Shown here: positions 529 through 10,933 of the stretch, in pieces
How the letters are laid out: every line of letters begins with the position of its first letter
Position numbering within the stretch: the stretch's first letter is position 1
NCBI GenBank assembly: GCA_011322445.1
Contig: DRMV01000008.1
Coordinates: 1 to 64,000, forward strand
Reading direction: 5' to 3'
Source of the DNA: Chloroflexota bacterium
Lineage (GTDB): Bacteria; Chloroflexota; Anaerolineae; Anaerolineales; DRMV01
DNA length: 64,000 bases
The notes under the pieces: generated by a model
What the model saw: only the letters and a program-made list of their open reading frames with translations
What the model was told of the DNA's origin: nothing
Databases searched by the model: none
Made by a program: the position numbers and the translations under genes

Positions 529-873
529 TCAACCACTTCGGTTAGATGTATCGCTGATCCCCCCCTGGGATGACGTTTGTGAATTTTCTCCCAGGTATGC
601 ACGCAGGAGCACACGGAATAGCTTAGCATGACTGCCGTTGTCCAGTTTGAGGTGTAGCAGTTCATGGACGATCACTTCCCACTGGAAAGCCAAGGGTAGA
701 TCCAGCAGTTCGGTGTTGAAGGTCAGGCGACCACGGCGAGATGCGCTGGCCCATTTGCGGCGCATGGCACGCAGGTGGATTTCTTTCACCTCGACGCCGA
801 TGCGCTTAGCCCAGCGGCGCACCTCGGCTTTGAACATTTCGCGGCGTACCAGGTTGTCGGTCAACTCACGCAT
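529..873 (-). CDS. YgjP/SprT-like zinc metallopeptidase-domain protein
   Basis: About 114 residues starting at MRELTDNL. This start overlaps the end of hsdR by 8 bases (ATGCGTGA), implying translational coupling. The protein has the HELLH zinc-binding motif followed by a short segment and a further histidine (N-G-S-H), the arrangement of the YgjP-like / DUF45 (M48-like) family. It is shorter than typical YgjP proteins (about 230 residues) and appears to hold only the C-terminal catalytic part. Such genes often follow hsdR in type I restriction operons; their function there is not established. It is the last gene of the leftward hsd operon. Confidence 0.75.
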   Translation of the reverse strand: MRELTDNLVRREMFKAEVRRWAKRIGVEVKEIHLRAMRRKWASASRRGRLTFNTELLDLPLAFQWEVIVHELLHLKLDNGSHAKLFRVLLRAYLGENSQTSSQGGISDTSNRSG

Positions 874-3856
874 GGCGCTTCGCCAACACATCCAGGATCT
901 CGTTCACCAGGGCAGAAACCTGCTTGTTGATGCCTTGCCGCAGCAACACCTTGTAGAGTGCCCGGCGCAGTTCGCGTTGCTGGCGCTGGCTGGTGGCCCA
1001 GTGGGGGTAAGCCTGGAAAGTCTGCACCAAATCCGTGGCTACAGCCCGGGCCGTCTCTTTGGACACGGCGTGATGCTGATGCAACAACCAATACACGGTG
1101 AAGGTCTCGGCTTCCAGACCTTGCTCGGCGAATTCCCGCTCGGCAGCGTTGATTTCGGCAATCAGGGCCTTGAGGGCATCTAAGGCCTCCTGAACGCTCT
1201 GCTGTCGTTCCTGGAAAGCCTGAACGATGGCCTCGGCCCGCTCGCCAATGGAGAGTAGGAAAGGCTTCGCCGTGGCCTCCTCAGCCACTTTCTGGCGGAT
1301 GGATTTTACCAGATTGAACACCTCCACGGTGGGCGGCTTACGGCTGGCCTCCAGGCGGCGAAGCAGGTCGGCATTGATTTCGTACACCTCCACCGCGCCA
1401 CGGATGGCCCCGCCCTGGGTGTGTTGTTGCACCAGAACCGCCGTCTTGCGTAACATCTCCCGAACATCCAAGCCAGCCTCGCTCCCCTCGTAGGCTTCCT
1501 GGAACATGGAGACCATCTGGGTCAGCAACGCATAGTCGTCCAGGTAGGGGCGCAGGAAAGCCGCCGGGGAGAGTACCTCGTACAGGTCAGCGAGTTCATC
1601 GAAGAAAGCGTAGAAAGCCTGCCGCGTTTCCTCGTCTCGAAAGTGGGAAAGCACTCGCTCAGCGGCCTTGTCGTCGCCGCCCGCGGCCAGGGGGATGTAC
1701 TCGCTGCGGGCCTGGGCCATCAGATGCTCAAAGCGCTCCCGCAGCACATCCAGGTCGGTGACCACGCCTTCAATGTCCTGAGAGTCAAAGGCCAAGGCCT
1801 TCTCCAAGTTTTCAAAAATGCCCACAAAGTCCACAATGAGACCGTGCTTTTTGCGCTGGCCGTCTTGCTCGTAGGGGCGGTTGACGCGTGCAATAGCCTG
1901 GAGGAGCACATGGTCGCGCATGGGTTTGTCCAGGTACATCACATAGAGGTTGGGCGCGTCGAAGCCGGTGAGTAACTTGGAGGTGACAATGAGAAACTTA
2001 GGATGTTCCTCGCGCCGGAAGCGATCGCGAATCTCCCGCTCTTCCTCCGCGCTGCGGTGATATTGGCGCAGCAAAGGTGGGTCATTGTAGTTGCTGCTGA
2101 TGACCACTTCGAAGGCTTCGGGCGGCAGGTAGCGTTCGGGATCTTCCCGATAGAGGCGCTCAAAGGCCTCTTGGTAAAGGGCACAGGCTTCCCGATCCAC
2201 GGCCACCATGAGGGCCTTGTAGCCCAAGGGCTCCACATATTCACGGTAGTGTTCGACCACGAAGCGGGCCACGCGTTGGATGCGGTCGTGGTTTTTGAGC
2301 ATGTTGCGCAGGGTGACGGCCCGTTCGAGGATACGGTTGAGTTCCTCGGGATCCGCCAGACCTTCGGCTTCGGCCAGGTCGAGGAATTCCCGTTCCAGGG
2401 TCTCGCGATCCACCCGCAGTTCGTTCTCGGCCAGGGTGTAGTGCAATGGGACGGTGGCACCGTCTTCGATGGACTCGCGGATGGAATACTTGTCTAAGTA
2501 GCCGTGGGGCGGGTCGTCCACCCCGAAGATTTGGAAGGTGCTCTTGCCGTGGGCGCTGCGGTCAATGGGTGTGCCGGTGAAGCCGAGGATGGTGGCGTTG
2601 GGCAGTGCGGCCATGAGATAAGTGCCCAGGTCGCCGCCGGTGGTGCGGTGGGCCTCGTCAATGAGCACGAAGATGTTGGCACGGGTGTTGATGTTGGCGG
2701 GCATCTGATGAAATTTGTGAATGGTGGACACGATAAGGCCACGGTAGTCCTGCCGCAGCAGGCCGCGCAGTTCGCGCTTGCTTTCGACCACCACGGCGTG
2801 CCCCAGCCCCACCGCGGCCAGGTTGGAGAAGAGTTGCTGCTCCAGATCGTTGCGGTCAACCAGCATCAACACGGTGGGGTTCTGGAAAAGAGGCTCGGCC
2901 AGCAGACGCTGGGCGATGGTGATCATGGTGAAGGTCTTGCCGGAGCCTTGAGTATGCCAGATGAGACCGCGGCGCTTGGGCTTTTGGCCCGGCGAAGGTT
3001 GCACGGCTTCCTCGGCGCGTTGCAGCACCTTGTCCACAGCCCGCATCTGGTGAGGGCGTAGGACAACTTTAGTCAGTTCGCCGTCGCGGTGGACAAAGAG
3101 GATGTAGTCGCGCAGCACGCGCACGATGCGCGCCGGGTGGACGAAAGCCTTGACCAGGGTTTCAAAATCCAAGGAGGGCGACTGGCCGGTCGCCCCAGAG
3201 GACGCAGACTCCACAGCCCCCGCAGTGGTGCGCCAATTGATAAGCGCCTTGCGCTCGGTGTTCCAGGTGGGGCCGTAGTAGAAGCGCACCAGGTGAGTGA
3301 TGGCGAAAAGCTGCATCAGCGCCAGCAAGGGCGCACCGTTCTCATGGTAGCGTCGCACTTGGATCAAGGCCTCAGCCAGACCCTCTCGCTTGTGTGCGGC
3401 TTTGGCCTCCACCAGCAGGACGGGGATGCCGTTGACGAAATAGGCAATGTCGATGCGGATAGGTTCGCGGCCTCCGGTGTAGCGCAGTTCCTGAGTGATA
3501 TGATAAAGGTTATTCTCCCAGTGCTCCAGATCCACCAAGCGGACGTTGCGCTCCCGCTTTTCCTCGGGAACATAAACGGTCTTGAGGCCGCGCAGGTATT
3601 CCCAGGTCTGCAGGTTGCCCTGGATGTTGGGGCGGATGCGGGCCAGACGGGCGGCCAGGTCTTCGGCTTCCCGCAGCCCGACCACGCCGGGGTTGAGGGC
3701 TTGCACCCGTTCGAGAAAGATATCGTAGAGGAGCAGGCCGTTGGTGCCTCGACGTAGGCGCTCGGCCTCCTCCTGGGAGAGTTCACGCCATTCCACCTCG
3801 GTGGAGTAGCGAGCCATGGGTTCCTGAACGGTGCGGCGTTCGGTGAAGCGGGGCAT
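866..3856 (-). CDS. hsdR: Type I restriction enzyme R subunit (HsdR)
   Basis: ATP-dependent translocase and endonuclease subunit of a type I restriction system, 996 residues from the chosen start MPRFTERR. That start has a GGGAG box 6 bases upstream; an open frame further upstream lacks a ribosome site and overlaps the preceding gene. The nuclease domain shows D136, then E150-x-K152 (VEAKAA), followed by a QxxxY motif near 166-170. Walker A is HTQGSGKT (301-308), the DEAH box is at 400-403, and later superfamily 2 motifs include TGFDAPN and the Q-x-x-x-R-x-x-R-like AIARVNRP. The length is normal and no damage is visible. It is cotranscribed with the genes upstream (18-base gap) and overlaps the metallopeptidase-like gene downstream. 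It needs HsdM and HsdS to cut DNA lacking host methylation. Confidence 0.95.
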   Translation of the reverse strand: MPRFTERRTVQEPMARYSTEVEWRELSQEEAERLRRGTNGLLLYDIFLERVQALNPGVVGLREAEDLAARLARIRPNIQGNLQTWEYLRGLKTVYVPEEKRERNVRLVDLEHWENNLYHITQELRYTGGREPIRIDIAYFVNGIPVLLVEAKAAHKREGLAEALIQVRRYHENGAPLLALMQLFAITHLVRFYYGPTWNTERKALINWRTTAGAVESASSGATGQSPSLDFETLVKAFVHPARIVRVLRDYILFVHRDGELTKVVLRPHQMRAVDKVLQRAEEAVQPSPGQKPKRRGLIWHTQGSGKTFTMITIAQRLLAEPLFQNPTVLMLVDRNDLEQQLFSNLAAVGLGHAVVVESKRELRGLLRQDYRGLIVSTIHKFHQMPANINTRANIFVLIDEAHRTTGGDLGTYLMAALPNATILGFTGTPIDRSAHGKSTFQIFGVDDPPHGYLDKYSIRESIEDGATVPLHYTLAENELRVDRETLEREFLDLAEAEGLADPEELNRILERAVTLRNMLKNHDRIQRVARFVVEHYREYVEPLGYKALMVAVDREACALYQEAFERLYREDPERYLPPEAFEVVISSNYNDPPLLRQYHRSAEEEREIRDRFRREEHPKFLIVTSKLLTGFDAPNLYVMYLDKPMRDHVLLQAIARVNRPYEQDGQRKKHGLIVDFVGIFENLEKALAFDSQDIEGVVTDLDVLRERFEHLMAQARSEYIPLAAGGDDKAAERVLSHFRDEETRQAFYAFFDELADLYEVLSPAAFLRPYLDDYALLTQMVSMFQEAYEGSEAGLDVREMLRKTAVLVQQHTQGGAIRGAVEVYEINADLLRRLEASRKPPTVEVFNLVKSIRQKVAEEATAKPFLLSIGERAEAIVQAFQERQQSVQEALDALKALIAEINAAEREFAEQGLEAETFTVYWLLHQHHAVSKETARAVATDLVQTFQAYPHWATSQRQQRELRRALYKVLLRQGINKQVSALVNEILDVLAKRHA

Positions 3857-3873
3857 AGACATCTCCCTCATTC

Positions 3874-6753
3874 TCATTGGATGCTGAAATGTAGTAAATC
3901 TCTGTACTCGAGAAATCCTCGGCTGCCAAGGTAATGGATTACCTGTTCTGCTGTTTGCTTTGCCTCGGGGGTTCCCAATGCCCATTGAAGAGCCTGTCGA
4001 ATGTGCTCCTGACCCGCGTAGAGTTCCCACCCCTCGATGTCTGCTTCTACGATCATCTTCAGGCATTCTACAGACTTCAAGGGATGCGTTTGGGCCGTTT
4101 CAGCCAAGCGTTCCAGTACCATACGGGTGGGTTCGATTTGGCCCGCGATTTCCAGGGAGGCGATTAACTGGTCAAGTGCCCAGCATGTATCAAATTTCGC
4201 CGACACAAACCACCAGCCAAAGGCCCTCATCTCTTCTGCAAAGGCGCTTGACGAGGAAGACGTTCTGGCCTGCTCCAGGCGGGATTCCCAAAGCCGCTTG
4301 AGGCGATCGAGAATTTCTTCAGGGGCTTGCCCCTCAGTCTGCATTAGAGCACGCCCTACAAAATCCAACGCATGTCCCCGTAGAGTCCCAGGCGCTTGTT
4401 CCCAGAACGTAGTGAGCAGAGGATCGTCCAGAGGGAGTTTCCCGCGCCAGAAGAACACCATCAAATGCTCTGCCAGTCTCTTGTCGGGATCGGCGTGCCA
4501 GGGCTTTTCCTCTCTTTGGTGGCCAATTCGTTTTACTGCATGACCGTACTGCTCACGGAGGAGATCGAAGGCATTGTCATAAGGCCTGTTGAGCGCAATA
4601 TAGGCGTTCCAGGCCGCTTCAAAGTAAGCCCGCTCTTCTTCATTGAGAGGGAAAATTCGAGTGACATGTTCATGTGCCCAGCCTTCATCCAAAAGCGCAA
4701 GCCACGGGAACCATTGTCCATAAACGGCTCGGATGGCGAAGGAAGGGTCTTTAGCAAGGTCCAGATGCGCTTCAAGCACCGCACGTACTTCGGGCATTTC
4801 CTCAAAGCCTTTGGCTAAGCGTTCGCTTGCGTCGGCTTGTTTTTTCAGGTAGCGACGGATCCAGAGAGCATATTGAAGAACGGCGTGCATGGCAGCGCCC
4901 CGGGTAGTGTTGATGGACAACGTAGCAGGGTCCATGCTGGTGTCTTTCTCACGTGACGGAGTAGGATCTGGATCCCCCGTCAATTGCTGCAAAATAGTCC
5001 ACGCCCTTTCCCGATAAGCCATAGGGAGCGCGGTCTCCTGCCGGAAGCCAGCGTCGAACAATTCCGCAAGGGCCTTTCGTGCCCATCCCCAGTCAGGGTC
5101 TCTCTCAAAATGGTGCACTTTGCGACCGGGGATATCCCTTGGTTGGGTGACAACCCAGTGAGAAAGGCGAAGCACCTGATCCCAATTGAAGGCTTGTTTG
5201 TGTTGCTCTATCGCCTGCCGAAGCCCCTCGAACAACGCTCGGACATATGTCGGGTCTGTCTCTTGGAAGTGTTCCGCCTGCTCGGTGAAACGACCGGGCT
5301 CCTCGGCGACGACCGAGGCCAGGACGCGGCCGAGGCCTTCAGGCGATGGCTCTTGAAACATCTCTTCCGGCGGCTGCCAGGTTTTTAGGAAAGTCACGAT
5401 TGCTTCGACCGACATGGCCTTCAATTCTTCGGCGGTTTTGGGGCTTCTCGGCCCGACCTCGCTAACCGTAAAATATACAGGGAACTCCGGATGCTCTGGC
5501 TCGCCATACCGTTGAACCAGGGCTCGATACTGCGCTCGCCAATCCTCAGGAAGGTTTTCAGGCCCAATCCATGCCAATCGGTCTCGCTGCCAGATTTCGC
5601 GGTAGCGGTCAATTTCTTCCTCTGTTGGTGCTTGGCCGTGCCGCTCTTGCCATTCTGCCCGGAATTGCTTGATCTCGGGGCCTTCCTCAATCCAGCGAAG
5701 AATCGTGTGCTGGTCTTCTGGTGAAAGGGCTGAGAAACCTTTTCTCAGCAAGAGGATATATTCATGTCGCACCCCCACGTCTTCAAAGAGTTCGCGGTCG
5801 GTCAAGTGGGCAGCGACCAGCCCTTTGGCCTGCTCATGGAACACCCTGAGGAGGTGTAGCGCAATTCGGCGGAAGACGTTCCAGGGTTTGGCTTCAAGGA
5901 AAGCCACCATTTCTTCCAAAGGTGCCTTGTCCTGCCTTACCGCCATCTCGGCGGCGTCACGGAGCCCTGAAACCAGTGCTTTGCGGGCATCCTCTCCCAT
6001 ATTTTGGGGGTGATCTTCAATGGCAGGACGCCAAGTAGTTGAAAAATCCGTGCCCTCTTGGACTTCTTCTCGCCGTAGCGAGAGCCGTATGGCTTTATCG
6101 AGAAGGTTACAAAGCAATTCCAATGCAGGGAAAGGGGCTATTCGGACGAGTTCTGGATAGTGCTCCTCTAAAATCTGTTCATAATCCCACATCTTGAAGC
6201 GTGGCCTGGGTTCCGAAAGTAGCGAATGCGCTACATCTGGATCACTTGCGTCAAGGGATACATCCAGCAACTCAGATGCCAAACGCAAGGCTTCCTCGGC
6301 TTTCCCGGCCCGTGCCCAATGGGCCAGGAGAGCCCCCAGTTTCTCAGGTAGAAGCAGAAGCAAATAGGGGGTTGCTGCCCATTTCAGCGCCTTCTCCACC
6401 AGCGTGACAGAAATCTCGGGGGGCATGGCAAGAGCAGCCTCTATTAAGGCCTGAAGCACAGCAGGGTTTTCTGTATCCTCCATCTGTTGAATAATTTCGG
6501 CCACAACATCGGGCTTGTATTTTGCCATCCGTGCCAGGTAACGCGCTTCAGGCCAGGGAGGAAAGCGGATAGTGCCTTTCTCCTCATTTCGTACTGGCTG
6601 CGGAGGATGTTTAAAGAAGCCCTCATTCCAAAGCGGCTTCAGCCACTCGGGGTTTTCAAGTCGGTCGAAGAAGTAGCGGTAATGCTCGGCGCACACAAGT
6701 AATGCTATTGCCCGGTCAACTTGCTCAGGCGTTGGCTTCTTCCAGGAGCGCAT
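3874..6753 (-). CDS. Unrecognised 959-residue helical protein in hsd operon
   Basis: A large soluble protein between hsdS and hsdR. The N-terminus (AEHYRYFFDRLENPEWLKPL region) is followed by a proline-rich turn (GFFKHPPQPV), then mostly amphipathic helices with many Ala, Leu and Glu residues, suggesting HEAT/TPR-like solenoid repeats. I see no Walker motif, nuclease motif, signal peptide or membrane segment. Its start overlaps the preceding gene by 29 bases and its stop lies 18 bases before hsdR, so all are probably one transcript. I do not recognise the family with certainty. Position in the operon suggests a role connected to restriction or phage defence (scaffold or sensor); that is inference only. 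Confidence 0.8.
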   Translation of the reverse strand: MRSWKKPTPEQVDRAIALLVCAEHYRYFFDRLENPEWLKPLWNEGFFKHPPQPVRNEEKGTIRFPPWPEARYLARMAKYKPDVVAEIIQQMEDTENPAVLQALIEAALAMPPEISVTLVEKALKWAATPYLLLLLPEKLGALLAHWARAGKAEEALRLASELLDVSLDASDPDVAHSLLSEPRPRFKMWDYEQILEEHYPELVRIAPFPALELLCNLLDKAIRLSLRREEVQEGTDFSTTWRPAIEDHPQNMGEDARKALVSGLRDAAEMAVRQDKAPLEEMVAFLEAKPWNVFRRIALHLLRVFHEQAKGLVAAHLTDRELFEDVGVRHEYILLLRKGFSALSPEDQHTILRWIEEGPEIKQFRAEWQERHGQAPTEEEIDRYREIWQRDRLAWIGPENLPEDWRAQYRALVQRYGEPEHPEFPVYFTVSEVGPRSPKTAEELKAMSVEAIVTFLKTWQPPEEMFQEPSPEGLGRVLASVVAEEPGRFTEQAEHFQETDPTYVRALFEGLRQAIEQHKQAFNWDQVLRLSHWVVTQPRDIPGRKVHHFERDPDWGWARKALAELFDAGFRQETALPMAYRERAWTILQQLTGDPDPTPSREKDTSMDPATLSINTTRGAAMHAVLQYALWIRRYLKKQADASERLAKGFEEMPEVRAVLEAHLDLAKDPSFAIRAVYGQWFPWLALLDEGWAHEHVTRIFPLNEEERAYFEAAWNAYIALNRPYDNAFDLLREQYGHAVKRIGHQREEKPWHADPDKRLAEHLMVFFWRGKLPLDDPLLTTFWEQAPGTLRGHALDFVGRALMQTEGQAPEEILDRLKRLWESRLEQARTSSSSSAFAEEMRAFGWWFVSAKFDTCWALDQLIASLEIAGQIEPTRMVLERLAETAQTHPLKSVECLKMIVEADIEGWELYAGQEHIRQALQWALGTPEAKQTAEQVIHYLGSRGFLEYRDLLHFSIQ

Positions 6754-7438
6754 CTAGTTCCTCCACTGTTTTGAAGAATCCTCTAACTATCCCTGATAAT
6801 GCATACTCAAAAATCTCGAAGCGTTCTTTAAGTTCATCAGCTCCCATGTGTGCGTCGGTCGCACCTCTCTCATGAGCCCGTTTTACAAACCATTCGGTAC
6901 TTTCAAGCCAAAATATAATTCTTGGCCTAAGAGTCTCCTCTGATAGGCTATTGTTAGGATCGATTGCCTGAAACAAACGTCGTGCTGTTTCGTACCTCTT
7001 TTCGCGAACTCTTTCATAGTCACTTACCAGTTTGGCAATCTTTTTATAGACCTTCCGCGGAATCGGTATCTTATTACGGTCAGGCAAGGTTTCTGATAAG
7101 GTTACTTCCGTTGGTGGTAAAGAACCATCCAAAGGGAGGCCATGTCGCCCCCAAACGTCCAGAATCTCATTAAGCCGGTTTTTGTATTGGAACTGACCTT
7201 CTGCCTTAGGCCCTGCTATCACATCGGGCAGTCGGTTTCGTATCTCACGAACAGCGTGTGAAACGAACCGAACTCTGCCGGGAAAGTTCTCACGGAACAC
7301 CATCGCCAGCGCCCCCTCATAGAGTTCTCCAAGAGATGGCGCCTCTTTCCTGAACCACGCTCGTAATTCTCTGCGCAATGGGGTCCAATAAACTGATTGT
7401 TTGCTGTATTCAGGTTCTTCAAATGGAGACCTGCTCAC
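6725..7438 (-). CDS. Unrecognised 237-residue protein in hsd operon
   Basis: Start chosen at a GTG with AGGAGG nine bases upstream; this overlaps the end of the HepT-HsdS gene by 20 bases, and the stop overlaps the next gene by 29 bases. This double overlap suggests tight translational coupling with the 959-residue protein, so the two are likely partners. The sequence is soluble and helical, with a conserved-looking core around SHAVREIRNRLPD in the first third and a Lys/Arg-rich middle. No catalytic motif is apparent. Function unknown. The gene sits where a type I operon normally has nothing between hsdS and hsdR, and may be part of an added defence module. Confidence 0.8.
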   Translation of the reverse strand: MSRSPFEEPEYSKQSVYWTPLRRELRAWFRKEAPSLGELYEGALAMVFRENFPGRVRFVSHAVREIRNRLPDVIAGPKAEGQFQYKNRLNEILDVWGRHGLPLDGSLPPTEVTLSETLPDRNKIPIPRKVYKKIAKLVSDYERVREKRYETARRLFQAIDPNNSLSEETLRPRIIFWLESTEWFVKRAHERGATDAHMGADELKERFEIFEYALSGIVRGFFKTVEELDALLEEANA

Positions 7439-9038
7439 GGCTATTGACCTCCTCAAACCGCTGCACAACCCCCTGCGGTAGGCGCACCTTGGCCGTCATC
7501 AGGTGATGGAGCAGGGAACGGAAGAGGTCGTCCAGCGCCTGCTGCCGTGCTTCTTCGGCCTCGATTTTGCGATCCACCGTTTGCAGGATGCGGGCGATGG
7601 CGCGTTGCTCCGGGAGTGGGGGGAGGGGGATAAAGGCTTGGCTTAAGGCTTTCCAAGAGGTTCGAGGATGGTTGACTCCTGCGGTGGTAGCAATTGCGTG
7701 GTTTAGAACAAAGGGAGTGTGCATCAAGTAGGCTAAGAAAAGAGGCTCGGCCTTTACTGGCTGAAGCACAAGAATATCTGTGGAGCACACACCAGGCCAT
7801 TCTGCTATAGCGGCTTTGTCCAAATAGGGACGTAGTTTGCCGTACAACACATCTCCTTCCTCAAATACCGATTTTGCGCTGCGAGTGGAGCCGGCACGGC
7901 CAAATTGCTTGATGCGTATCTCGCCAGGAGTTAGGTGTTCAAGGCCAATGTACCGTGCATTAGGAGCATCTGATGGATGGATGGTACCCTTGCGTAGTGT
8001 TACCACGTCCCCCAACCTCACCACGCGCCAATGAGCGGGGATGGGGCCAATAGGGGTATCCTGCAGCGCCACCTGGTCAGCCATGTCCACAGGCACGGGG
8101 CCGTAGGTGAAGAGGTGGCGCATGAGGGCGCGTTTGAAGTCGCGCAGGGCGACGATGACGCGTGCAGTGGCCTCGCTGGCTTCTTGCACCGTCCGCAGCA
8201 CATGGGCAATGGCGCGCTGTTCGGGCAGGGGCGGGTGTAGGATAAGGAACTCTTGAAGTGTCTTCTTGTTGATGCTTTGGAAGATCGTGCCCGAAGCCTC
8301 GCTCCTTAATCTCGGACGTTCGTAAAGCAATACGAAGAACAGATACCAAGCATCCGTGTGCTGCTTTGGCCTAACCTCTGCTAAACCACGGCCTATAGCA
8401 TATCTTCGATCCGAAATATTTACGTTGCCCACTGGGGCTCGAACTGAAATCAATATGGACCAAGAGGCAGATATACGTTTGGGCTGTGTCGTCCATTTGG
8501 TATTTCTCGGAAAGATCTCTCCGAACTCAGCCTTACCTTGCAAGAAGGCTACACCTTTACCGTTCTCATTGTAGCTAGATGAAGGCGGTGATTGTCCCAT
8601 ATAAATGTTAGCCACATCAGATAGGTGCTTTACACTCCAATTTGATGGTAAATCAACAAGAACTTCGATCATTGGTATGTACCTCATGATCTTATCTTTA
8701 AGATCGGGTAAACGGCGCCTTGCCACATCCCATACTATTTCAAGATCAACATTATCAAGGTTGTGTACAAGTACATCTCTCATTCCAGAGATATCTTTCC
8801 AGGGGATATCGGGAATGCGTTGACGAAGAGGTATGGGTAGCCTCTTTGCTGCTTCTCCGATTATTTCGATGGTTTTTATGACAGCATATCGTTTTTCATC
8901 ATTTCTGATGAAATCATTATATTCAACACCTTCAACGAAATAGCGACCTCGCCGACATTCTCGTGCAATAATGGAAAACGTTTTTCTTACTAATTGGACG
9001 GCTTCCGTTTCCATCGCTAATTGTGCCTTTGTTCTCAT
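7419..9038 (-). CDS. hsdS: HepT-like (DUF86/HEPN) domain fused to type I specificity subunit HsdS
   Basis: 539 residues in one uninterrupted frame. Residues 10-128 match the HepT/DUF86 fold: a helical domain with the HEPN motif R87-x4-H92 (MRDVLVHN) followed by VDLEIVWDV. Residues 131-539 are a full HsdS: first target-recognition domain from PSNWSVKHL, a conserved spacer helix with PLPEQRAIA (about 270-315), a second target-recognition domain from AHWRVVRLG, and a second PLPEQRAIA helix. HsdS chooses the DNA site for methylation and cleavage; HepT domains are RNase toxins of MNT/HEPN systems. The Tyr usually AMPylated in HepT (RX4HXY) is Leu94 here. Met123 is preceded by GAGG nine bases upstream, so HsdS could also be made alone from about base 8672. 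No MNT antitoxin gene is adjacent. Confidence 0.85.
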   Translation of the reverse strand: MRTKAQLAMETEAVQLVRKTFSIIARECRRGRYFVEGVEYNDFIRNDEKRYAVIKTIEIIGEAAKRLPIPLRQRIPDIPWKDISGMRDVLVHNLDNVDLEIVWDVARRRLPDLKDKIMRYIPMIEVLVDLPSNWSVKHLSDVANIYMGQSPPSSSYNENGKGVAFLQGKAEFGEIFPRNTKWTTQPKRISASWSILISVRAPVGNVNISDRRYAIGRGLAEVRPKQHTDAWYLFFVLLYERPRLRSEASGTIFQSINKKTLQEFLILHPPLPEQRAIAHVLRTVQEASEATARVIVALRDFKRALMRHLFTYGPVPVDMADQVALQDTPIGPIPAHWRVVRLGDVVTLRKGTIHPSDAPNARYIGLEHLTPGEIRIKQFGRAGSTRSAKSVFEEGDVLYGKLRPYLDKAAIAEWPGVCSTDILVLQPVKAEPLFLAYLMHTPFVLNHAIATTAGVNHPRTSWKALSQAFIPLPPLPEQRAIARILQTVDRKIEAEEARQQALDDLFRSLLHHLMTAKVRLPQGVVQRFEEVNSREQVSI

Positions 9039-9208
9039 AGCCGGGACGAGTTTTTTGGCAAAGTGGCTCTTTGCCTTTGCTTATACTTCTAACCGCGCCA
9101 CTTTCGACTCCCCGGGTAGGTGGCCGAAATCGGTCAAGCAATAGCCAGTAGGGAAGCTGATTGTATTCGGGATGGGGTACAATGGGTCCTCGTCGGCCTT
9201 GTGAAGTG
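9039..9208. other. hsdM-hsdS intergenic spacer
   Basis: 170 bases between hsdM and the HepT-HsdS gene, unusually long for an hsd operon. I see no intact gene. It is too short for a MntA-type nucleotidyltransferase, the usual partner of HepT. It may be scar sequence from the event that placed the HepT domain in front of hsdS. Confidence 0.5.
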
Positions 9209-10822
9209 TCAGGATGGTTGTTGTTTTTGTGGATCCGTAGCGTCCTTATCAATCAATCCCAAGACGCGTAGGACGCCTTGCAGGGCGCGGTCGGCCTCGG
9301 AGCGGGTCTCCTCGGCCTCGCGCAGCCGCACCACGGCCTCCTCCAGGGGCAACACCTCCTCCTCGTCGTTCTGGGCCACGTAGCGGTTGGGGCTCAGGTT
9401 GTAGTCATTGGCCGCGGCCTCCTCGGTGGTGATAATGCGGCTCAGGCCCTCTTCTTCGGCCCAGTCGTGATACACGCGGGCGATGCGATCCACATGCTCG
9501 TCGGTCAGTTCGTTTTTGGGGCGGCCTTTGACGAAGAGGCGGGAGGCGTTGATGAGCAGGATCTCGCTTGGATGGCGCTTCTGCTTGTTGATGACCATGA
9601 TGATGCCGGGCGCGGTGGTGTTGTAGAAGAGGTTTTCAGGCAGCAGGATGACGGCTTCGATGAGGTCGCCCGGCACGGTGACATCGCCCTCGATGAAGCG
9701 CTTGCGGATGTCGCGCTCGCGGTTGCTGCCGCGCGTGCCGCTGCCCCGGCTTACCGCGCCCGTGTCCAACACCACGGCCATGCGACCTGTGTCGTTCAAC
9801 GAGGCCACCATGTGCTGCACCCAGCCCCAGTCCGCGCTGGATGCGGGCGGCACGCCGTAGGGAAAGCGATTGTACGGGTCGTGCTCGTACACCTCGGTGG
9901 GGATATCCTGGTTCCACATGGGATTGGCGACTATCAGATCAAAACGGCGCAGGTGACTTCCCGCAGTGTCCAGGAACGCGGGCTTGCGCATCGTATCGCC
10001 CAGGCGGATGTCCGCATCTTCAATATCGTGGACGACCACGTTCATCCAGGCCATGGCGTAGGCTGAAGCGTTGATGTCCTGGCCGAAGACGCGGATTTCC
10101 GCGATATGGCCGGAGGGCTTTAGACGACCATTCTCCTCCTCGCCGTACTTTTCCAGGAAGCGAAGAAAGGTCTTGACCAGGAGGCCGCCGGAGCCGCAGG
10201 TGGGGTCATACACGCTCATGCCGGGTTCGGGGTCGAGGATGCGAGCCATGAGCACGCTGACCATGCGCGGGGTGTAGAACTCGCCCGCGGACTGGCCCGC
10301 GCCCTCCGCAAACTTGCGCAGCAGGTACTCGTAGGCACGGCCCAGGATGTCGGGCTCCACATCGTCCAGGCCCAGACGATGCTGGGAAAGAACCTGAATC
10401 AGGCGGTGCAGGTGGGGATCATCCACAATGCGCTGGCCCGCGGTGGTGGCGTTGAAGTCGGTAATGTCAATGACGCCGCTCAGGCGCGGGTTTTCGCGAG
10501 CCACGGCCCGCACGGCGTCGGTCAGGCGCTGGCCCAGGCCCTGGGCGGGCAGGTCGCGCAAGGTGGCCCAGCGGGCCGTCGAAGGGATATAGAAACGCAC
10601 TAGGGCGTGATCTTCGTCCACCATCTCCCGCGCCTGCTCCGGCGGCATGCCAAACTCAGCAGCCACGCGCTGCACTTCGTCGTCGAACACATCAGACAGG
10701 CGTTTGAGGAAGATGAGGGGGAGGATGTAGTCCTTGAACTTGGGCGCATCTACCGGCCCGCGGATGGCGCAAGCGGCCTCCCAGAGCCAGGATTCCAGGG
10801 TGGAAATATCCAGGGTGGTCAT
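9209..10822 (-). CDS. hsdM: Type I DNA methyltransferase subunit (HsdM)
   Basis: N6-adenine methyltransferase subunit, 537 residues from MTTLDISTLE; an upstream extension of the frame has no ribosome site. The helical N-terminal HsdM domain is followed by the SAM-binding motif DPTCGSGG (206-213) and the catalytic motif IV at 300-303, which reads NPMW rather than the common NPPF/Y. The remaining fold around LPENLFYNTTAPG and the C-terminal helices fit HsdM. With HsdS it forms the modification enzyme, and with HsdR the restriction complex. It is the first gene of the leftward operon, with a probable extended -10 promoter about 115 bases upstream of the start. Confidence 0.95.
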   Translation of the reverse strand: MTTLDISTLESWLWEAACAIRGPVDAPKFKDYILPLIFLKRLSDVFDDEVQRVAAEFGMPPEQAREMVDEDHALVRFYIPSTARWATLRDLPAQGLGQRLTDAVRAVARENPRLSGVIDITDFNATTAGQRIVDDPHLHRLIQVLSQHRLGLDDVEPDILGRAYEYLLRKFAEGAGQSAGEFYTPRMVSVLMARILDPEPGMSVYDPTCGSGGLLVKTFLRFLEKYGEEENGRLKPSGHIAEIRVFGQDINASAYAMAWMNVVVHDIEDADIRLGDTMRKPAFLDTAGSHLRRFDLIVANPMWNQDIPTEVYEHDPYNRFPYGVPPASSADWGWVQHMVASLNDTGRMAVVLDTGAVSRGSGTRGSNRERDIRKRFIEGDVTVPGDLIEAVILLPENLFYNTTAPGIIMVINKQKRHPSEILLINASRLFVKGRPKNELTDEHVDRIARVYHDWAEEEGLSRIITTEEAAANDYNLSPNRYVAQNDEEEVLPLEEAVVRLREAEETRSEADRALQGVLRVLGLIDKDATDPQKQQPS

Positions 10823-10933
10823 GGGTCTCTGCACTCCGTGGCGATGTCCATTGCCAAGAGGGGATCGTGAAGAAAAAAGAATTTGTCCCCTTATTAATCT
10901 CATAAGGCTCTAATCAGGCGTAGTAACACAAGC

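Follow-up and report, generated by a model that had tools for sequence, protein, structure and literature searches.

A HepT toxin domain joined in one open frame to a type I restriction specificity subunit in a Chloroflexota bacterium

HepT is a small toxin domain that cuts RNA and is usually paired with an antitoxin of its own, and HEPN toxins form dimers. A type I restriction enzyme (M2S) contains one HsdS, and hence an HsdS carrying HepT would bring one HepT to each enzyme. For the S. oneidensis HepT (SO_3166), the Y104A change reportedly left toxicity intact and impaired neutralisation by MntA (PMC7641770). In the parts of the 2013 HEPN survey available to us (PMC3710099), HEPN proteins are described as often linked to restriction-modification (R-M) systems, and PrrC as held by its own R-M system. 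The R-M-linked HEPN fusions in these parts are to REase, helicase and ATPase subunits and not to methylases; the survey's table adds occasional fusions of the DUF86 family to nucleic acid methylase domains, and a fusion to a specificity subunit is not mentioned in these parts. No report of a HepT-HsdS fusion was found in the open-licence literature on HEPN/HsdS.

The window analysed here is a stretch of 64,000 nucleotides of contig DRMV01000008.1. On its minus strand it carries, in order, hsdM, the HepT-hsdS gene, an unknown gene of ~237 aa, a 959-aa DSR1-like gene and hsdR, with the following features.

9209..10822, minus strand: HsdM; the frame opens at 10903, likely start Met28 at 10822 (Pfam N6_Mtase, HsdM_N)
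9039..9208, minus strand: gap of 170 bp between hsdM and HepT, no MNT (three-frame translation)
8673..9038, minus strand: HepT/DUF86 HEPN domain, fusion residues 1-122 (Pfam, AF2 model, VIA-align, alignment)
8685-8963, minus strand: Pfam HepT match within the fusion gene
8778-8780, 8763-8765 and 8757-8759, minus strand: codons of R87, H92 and L94 (alignment)
8670..8685, minus strand: candidate internal HsdS start Met123, GAGGT at 8685-8681 and ATG at 8672-8670 (anti-SD duplex)
7419..8672, minus strand: HsdS specificity subunit (residues 123-539) with two TRDs and a pair of long conserved helices (two Pfam Methylase_S matches; model)
6725..7438, minus strand: accessory gene ORF237, about 237 aa, between hsdS and hsdR (no Pfam match)
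3874..6753, minus strand: accessory gene ORF959, 959 aa, like the C-terminal part of DSR1 (PADLOC)
866..3856, minus strand: HsdR; the frame opens at 4066, likely start 3856 (Pfam HSDR_N, SWI2_SNF2, ResIII)

The fusion gene is a frame of 539 aa without an internal stop (9038..7419, minus strand), in which a complete HepT/DUF86 HEPN domain is followed by a complete two-TRD HsdS, as an earlier note on this DNA had described. Pfam places a HepT-like match at residues 26-118 (E 1.1e-21), followed by two stretches of Methylase_S, the best of them at 131-289 (E 1.4e-34); matches this strong are far from what chance would give, and no other domain, including an ABC-ATPase of the PrrC type, was found by Pfam. 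The HsdS half has the two Methylase_S/TRD domains and two conserved helices of a specificity subunit (Pfam; model) and lies in an operon with hsdM and hsdR, while the HepT half has the HEPN fold and belongs to DUF86/PF01934 (Pfam; model comparison). The fusion is confirmed as real in this assembly, in one genome only. In so fragmented an assembly (53 contigs), with no sibling copy of the gene, one might suspect that the join is chimeric or that a stop has been lost. Such an artefact is quite unlikely, however, given a frame that is continuous through both domains with a sensible linker, an internal SD that coincides exactly with the HsdS boundary, and operon genes ordered as in relatives.

Because the HepT rows could not be combined with the HsdS rows in one alignment, the two halves were modelled separately. 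For the N-terminal domain, whose structure the earlier note had proposed to predict, AlphaFold2 (run on residues 1-125) gave a six-helix bundle with a mean pLDDT of 92, a HEPN fold nearest to HepT toxins. Among solved structures, HepT/HEPN toxins come closest by Foldseek (probability 1.00 and TM about 0.65, with an E of only 0.02), and comparison with HepT toxins by VIA-align gave Z of 10.8-12.1, as against 8.8 for the next rows. Values of this size are modest for a helical bundle, and the family call therefore leans mainly on the Pfam match. Additionally, the A2 profile search matched SO_3166-type HepTs, and phmmer with the HepT domain alone matched no solved structure. Of the PDB structures, the HsdS 1yf2 best matches the full-length model (E 4.9e-26), which shows both TRDs and the pair of long conserved helices. 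Confidence for the HepT half is low in this model (block pLDDT 34-61 over residues 1-120) because the HepT rows could not be included, and no reliable placement of HepT relative to HsdS can be taken from it; the C-terminal helix of HepT is modelled as reaching about residue 128, just ahead of TRD1.

R87 and H92 are present in the fusion, as claimed before, and in all of the 31 other HepTs aligned with it. The AMP-acceptor position is Tyr in 30 of these 31, Phe in one, and Leu94 in the fusion, where the next residues are DN (F95D, G96N) in place of the usual FG; the RX4HXY motif is thus kept at R and H and lost at the acceptor Tyr. Apart from Y94L and F95D, both of them in the AMP-acceptor loop, the fusion HepT retains the columns conserved in at least 80% (14 of 16), and its number of missed columns is about that of ordinary members. 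In a Legionella HEPN protein, R98A and H103A reportedly had a negligible effect on RNase activity, for which Q44/E47 matter (PMC11586414), and so retention of R and H is no proof of activity in the fusion. The kept structural columns and the modelled helix, continuous towards TRD1, would suit a non-catalytic structural domain used by the restriction complex for RNA binding or HsdS dimerisation, and other domesticated HEPN domains have reportedly lost catalytic residues (PMC3710099). Nevertheless, this explanation is improbable: the catalytic R and H are retained, and such a domain is found in none of the compared HsdS proteins, which indicates that HsdS does not need one.

An MNT gene was sought in all minus-strand frames of the 170-bp gap between hsdM and HepT, and none is encoded; nor was an MNT recognised among the other proteins of the operon. 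The absence of MNT and the replacement of the acceptor Tyr, both asserted in the earlier note, therefore stand. An MNT-like ORF adjoins each of the other two DUF86/HEPN genes in the genome. An inverted repeat of 7 pairs lies just upstream of the HepT start (window 9057-9075).

The translation signals of the two halves differ. GAGG lies 9 nt ahead of the Met123 ATG, and its anti-SD energy of -6.9 is reached by 7.9% of random ATGs, whose median is -2.8; Met1 of HepT has no SD (0), and Met9 has a weak one (-3.2). The internal start that the earlier note had pointed out is thus the best equipped of the three, and HsdS homology begins at this very residue. The likely starts of HsdM, HsdR, ORF237 and ORF959, which were chosen by agreement with homology or overlap, have energies from -6.1 to -12.6. 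For HsdM the SD at Met28 gives -6.1, with homology from about residue 29; for HsdR the value at residue 71 is -8.5; the ORF237 frame opens at TTG 7468, and GTG 7438 carries a strong SD (-12.6). The good SD at Met123, compared with none or a weak one at Met1 and Met9, suggests that most HsdS is made free of HepT, as far as start signals can predict.

In related operons the same position is occupied by many different genes. Scanning with HsdM yielded 80 loci from many phyla, 56-85% identical, and more than 400 bp separates hsdM from hsdS in 29 of the 59 loci with an hsdS frame in reach. The hsdM-hsdS gap in this HsdM lineage (L112-L191) is an accessory-gene slot, about half filled, with varied genes. 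Pfam identifies among its cargos SLFN_AlbA_2 with HATPase_c_4, Y1 transposase-like genes, SMC/AAA, HTH with IrrE peptidase, PIN, a 1662-aa protein with weak ATPase matches, and MNT. The 1662-aa protein, whose weak matches are AAA/NACHT-like, fills L118:11622-16610, and a 60-aa protein occurs together with an 831-aa SMC/AAA-like protein in the slot in two phyla (L117:11578-14233 and L134:11608-14263). The closest orthologues by HsdM identity, L112 (85%), L113 (79%) and L114 (80%), hold other genes in the slot, AlbA_2/HATPase in the first and Y1 transposase-like genes in the other two. The orthologue in G011 (L114/L193) was set aside as a comparison: contig ends break it inside hsdS and its slot is taken by a Y1 transposase-like gene, so that it offers neither a fused nor an unfused HepT.

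A DUF86 HepT gene follows hsdM in 6 of the 80 loci (L120, L134, L138, L146, L175 and L182) and is joined to HsdS in none of them. Separate genes in the order MNT-HepT-HsdS are found in L134 (titled Nitrospirae), L138 (Chloroflexi) and L146 (Chloroflexus; the same contig as L077), and in all three HepT overlaps both neighbours, MNT and HsdS, by a few bases. These sequence comparisons give good support to an origin of the fusion from a slot cassette of this kind, which has probably lost its MNT and whose HepT is now read through into HsdS. The fusion HepT shows about 35-38% identity to the HepTs of L134, L138 and L146 and belongs to another subfamily, so its insertion was probably independent. 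Its composition marks it as a foreign piece, with GC3 of 0.33 (GC 0.41) compared to 0.79 in HsdM (GC 0.63); the conserved HsdS regions have 0.77-0.78 (GC 0.63-0.66) and TRD1 has 0.48 (GC 0.47). Two of the six loci show arrangements of their own. In L182:11591-12157, directly after hsdM, one open frame comprises MNT and HepT, cut by the contig end, and in L175:11612-11950 the first residues of MNT, YKQTENDLIPEEWEVKKF, resemble an HsdS N-terminus, as if the cassette had entered the hsdS start.

The search across genomes for DUF86-HsdS fusions, which the earlier note had proposed, used the fusion or its first 270 residues as query against about 1,170 genomes in overlapping sets (101 relatives, 400 of the same phylum, 11 chosen genomes, and 111, 277 and 274 from three other phyla). 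No second HepT-HsdS fusion is among the matches listed from these genomes, and the listed plasmid and phage records contain none either (for plasmids, the best 40 and best 60). Several candidates were rejected: the long frame of G329 is spurious; G194 has a matching TRD in its second half and no HepT; G148, G424, G013, G402, G220 and G156 have HepT ORFs without HsdS; and in G1063, G939 and G1134 HepT adjoins MNT, with no HsdS. A fusion unique to this assembly, with separate genes in relatives, had been named in the earlier note as a refutation of its reading. In part this is what is seen, since relatives carry HepT and HsdS separately and the search turned up no second fusion; on the other hand, neither an orthologue of the HepT half nor a close orthologue with both domains is present among the relatives compared, which leaves no counterpart for direct comparison. 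The HepT-HsdS gene is a real new domain combination and probably a singleton.

The explanation that we favour over a PrrC-like backup, with about an even chance of being correct, is that HepT is a captured, weakly made and unregulated passenger on a working HsdS. An MNT-HepT toxin-antitoxin cassette would once have been present between hsdM and hsdS, as in related type I operons; MNT would then have been lost, and the HepT frame, which in relatives stops just where hsdS begins and overlaps it, would have run on into hsdS. The HsdS half would function as an ordinary specificity subunit, translated for the most part from Met123, the former hsdS start, with the long form made little or not at all. 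The HepT RNase, closed to AMPylation, may be tolerated as scarce and/or weakened, or as monomeric, with one per M2S complex. This account is consistent with the overlapping unfused arrays, the other three loci with HepT after hsdM, the varied contents of the slot even in the closest orthologues, the foreign GC3, the start signals in an operon otherwise well equipped, and the lack of a second fusion among the matches listed. Against it, the modelled HepT fold is intact and the 122-codon frame is still open, and neutral decay would be expected to strike conserved columns besides those of the acceptor loop, where both misses lie.

It had been proposed in the earlier note that the fusion serves as a built-in abortive-infection backup. 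In such a PrrC-like arrangement, which we hold only tentatively, HepT would be an active RNase kept inactive while HsdS is assembled with HsdM and HsdR; dissociation or blockage of the enzyme, or the meeting of two enzymes on invading DNA, would let HepT pair and cut RNA. Since the MNT gene and the acceptor Tyr are both gone, any control of HepT must come from elsewhere, and the retained R87/H92 and HEPN fold, the toxicity reported for SO_3166 Y104A, the reported R-M links of HEPN proteins and PrrC, and the modelled helix ending just before TRD1 all agree with this. The proposal loses ground, however, because the fusion is a singleton in the genomes searched, the RBS stands at the HsdS start and not at the HepT start, two residues after the lost Tyr are altered, and the overlapping MNT-HepT-HsdS genes of the slot offer a simple route to accidental fusion. 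Moreover, the ABC-ATPase sensor of PrrC is absent, the HepT half has low confidence in the full-length model, and its foreign composition is recent. A PrrC-like role is possible but less probable than that of a passenger. That HsdS carries a competent HEPN RNase, with incorporation into the restriction complex replacing the antitoxin and complex failure or pairing on foreign DNA activating it, is doubtful. It may be that the HepT part is a remnant which the cell tolerates and not an inbuilt suicide switch.

Between hsdS and hsdR lies a two-gene unit of ORF237 followed by ORF959, the latter without the SIR2 part: PADLOC matches it to Dsr1 (4.8e-56) over profile positions 307-1214 of 1227, the first about 300 positions being missing. 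Homologues of ORF237 stand directly upstream of ORF959 homologues in L066, L099, L106 and L107, and no HsdM, HsdS or HsdR homologue was found beside the pair in these four loci. After hsdR, an ORF at window 529-891 (minus strand) resembles, by eye only, a SprT-like metallopeptidase, and a similar ORF, also by eye only, stands behind an hsdR remnant in L077 (208-513).

If HepT is active, the locus would turn the PrrC/EcoprrI idea into a single chain, a toxin gated by the specificity subunit, with a masking mechanism that is directly testable. Even if it is inert, toxin-antitoxin and other accessory genes have repeatedly entered a slot at the hsdM-hsdS junction of this type I lineage, and the locus and its relatives illustrate a route by which a toxin ends up fused to an R-M subunit.

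Compared to ordinary HsdS proteins (1yf2, L153, L127), the gene shares the two TRDs, the two conserved helical regions and the operon with hsdM and hsdR, but adds an N-terminal HEPN domain of 122 residues. It resembles HepT/MntA (HEPN/MNT, type VII; SO_3166/SO_3165) in the HepT fold and R-x4-H, and its relatives have MNT upstream in the same slot, whereas the fusion itself has no MNT, has Leu for Tyr and is joined to HsdS. As with PrrC and EcoprrI (type Ic R-M), a HEPN RNase is genetically tied to hsdMSR; here, however, it is a HepT fused to HsdS, from another HEPN family and with no ABC-ATPase, and any regulation of it by the R-M system would be putative. Finally, as in the HEPN fusions to REase, helicase or AAA subunits of R-M systems (DUF4145-REase, DUF499-HEPN), a HEPN domain and an R-M component share one chain, but here the domain is joined to the specificity subunit, whose role extends to both methylation and restriction.
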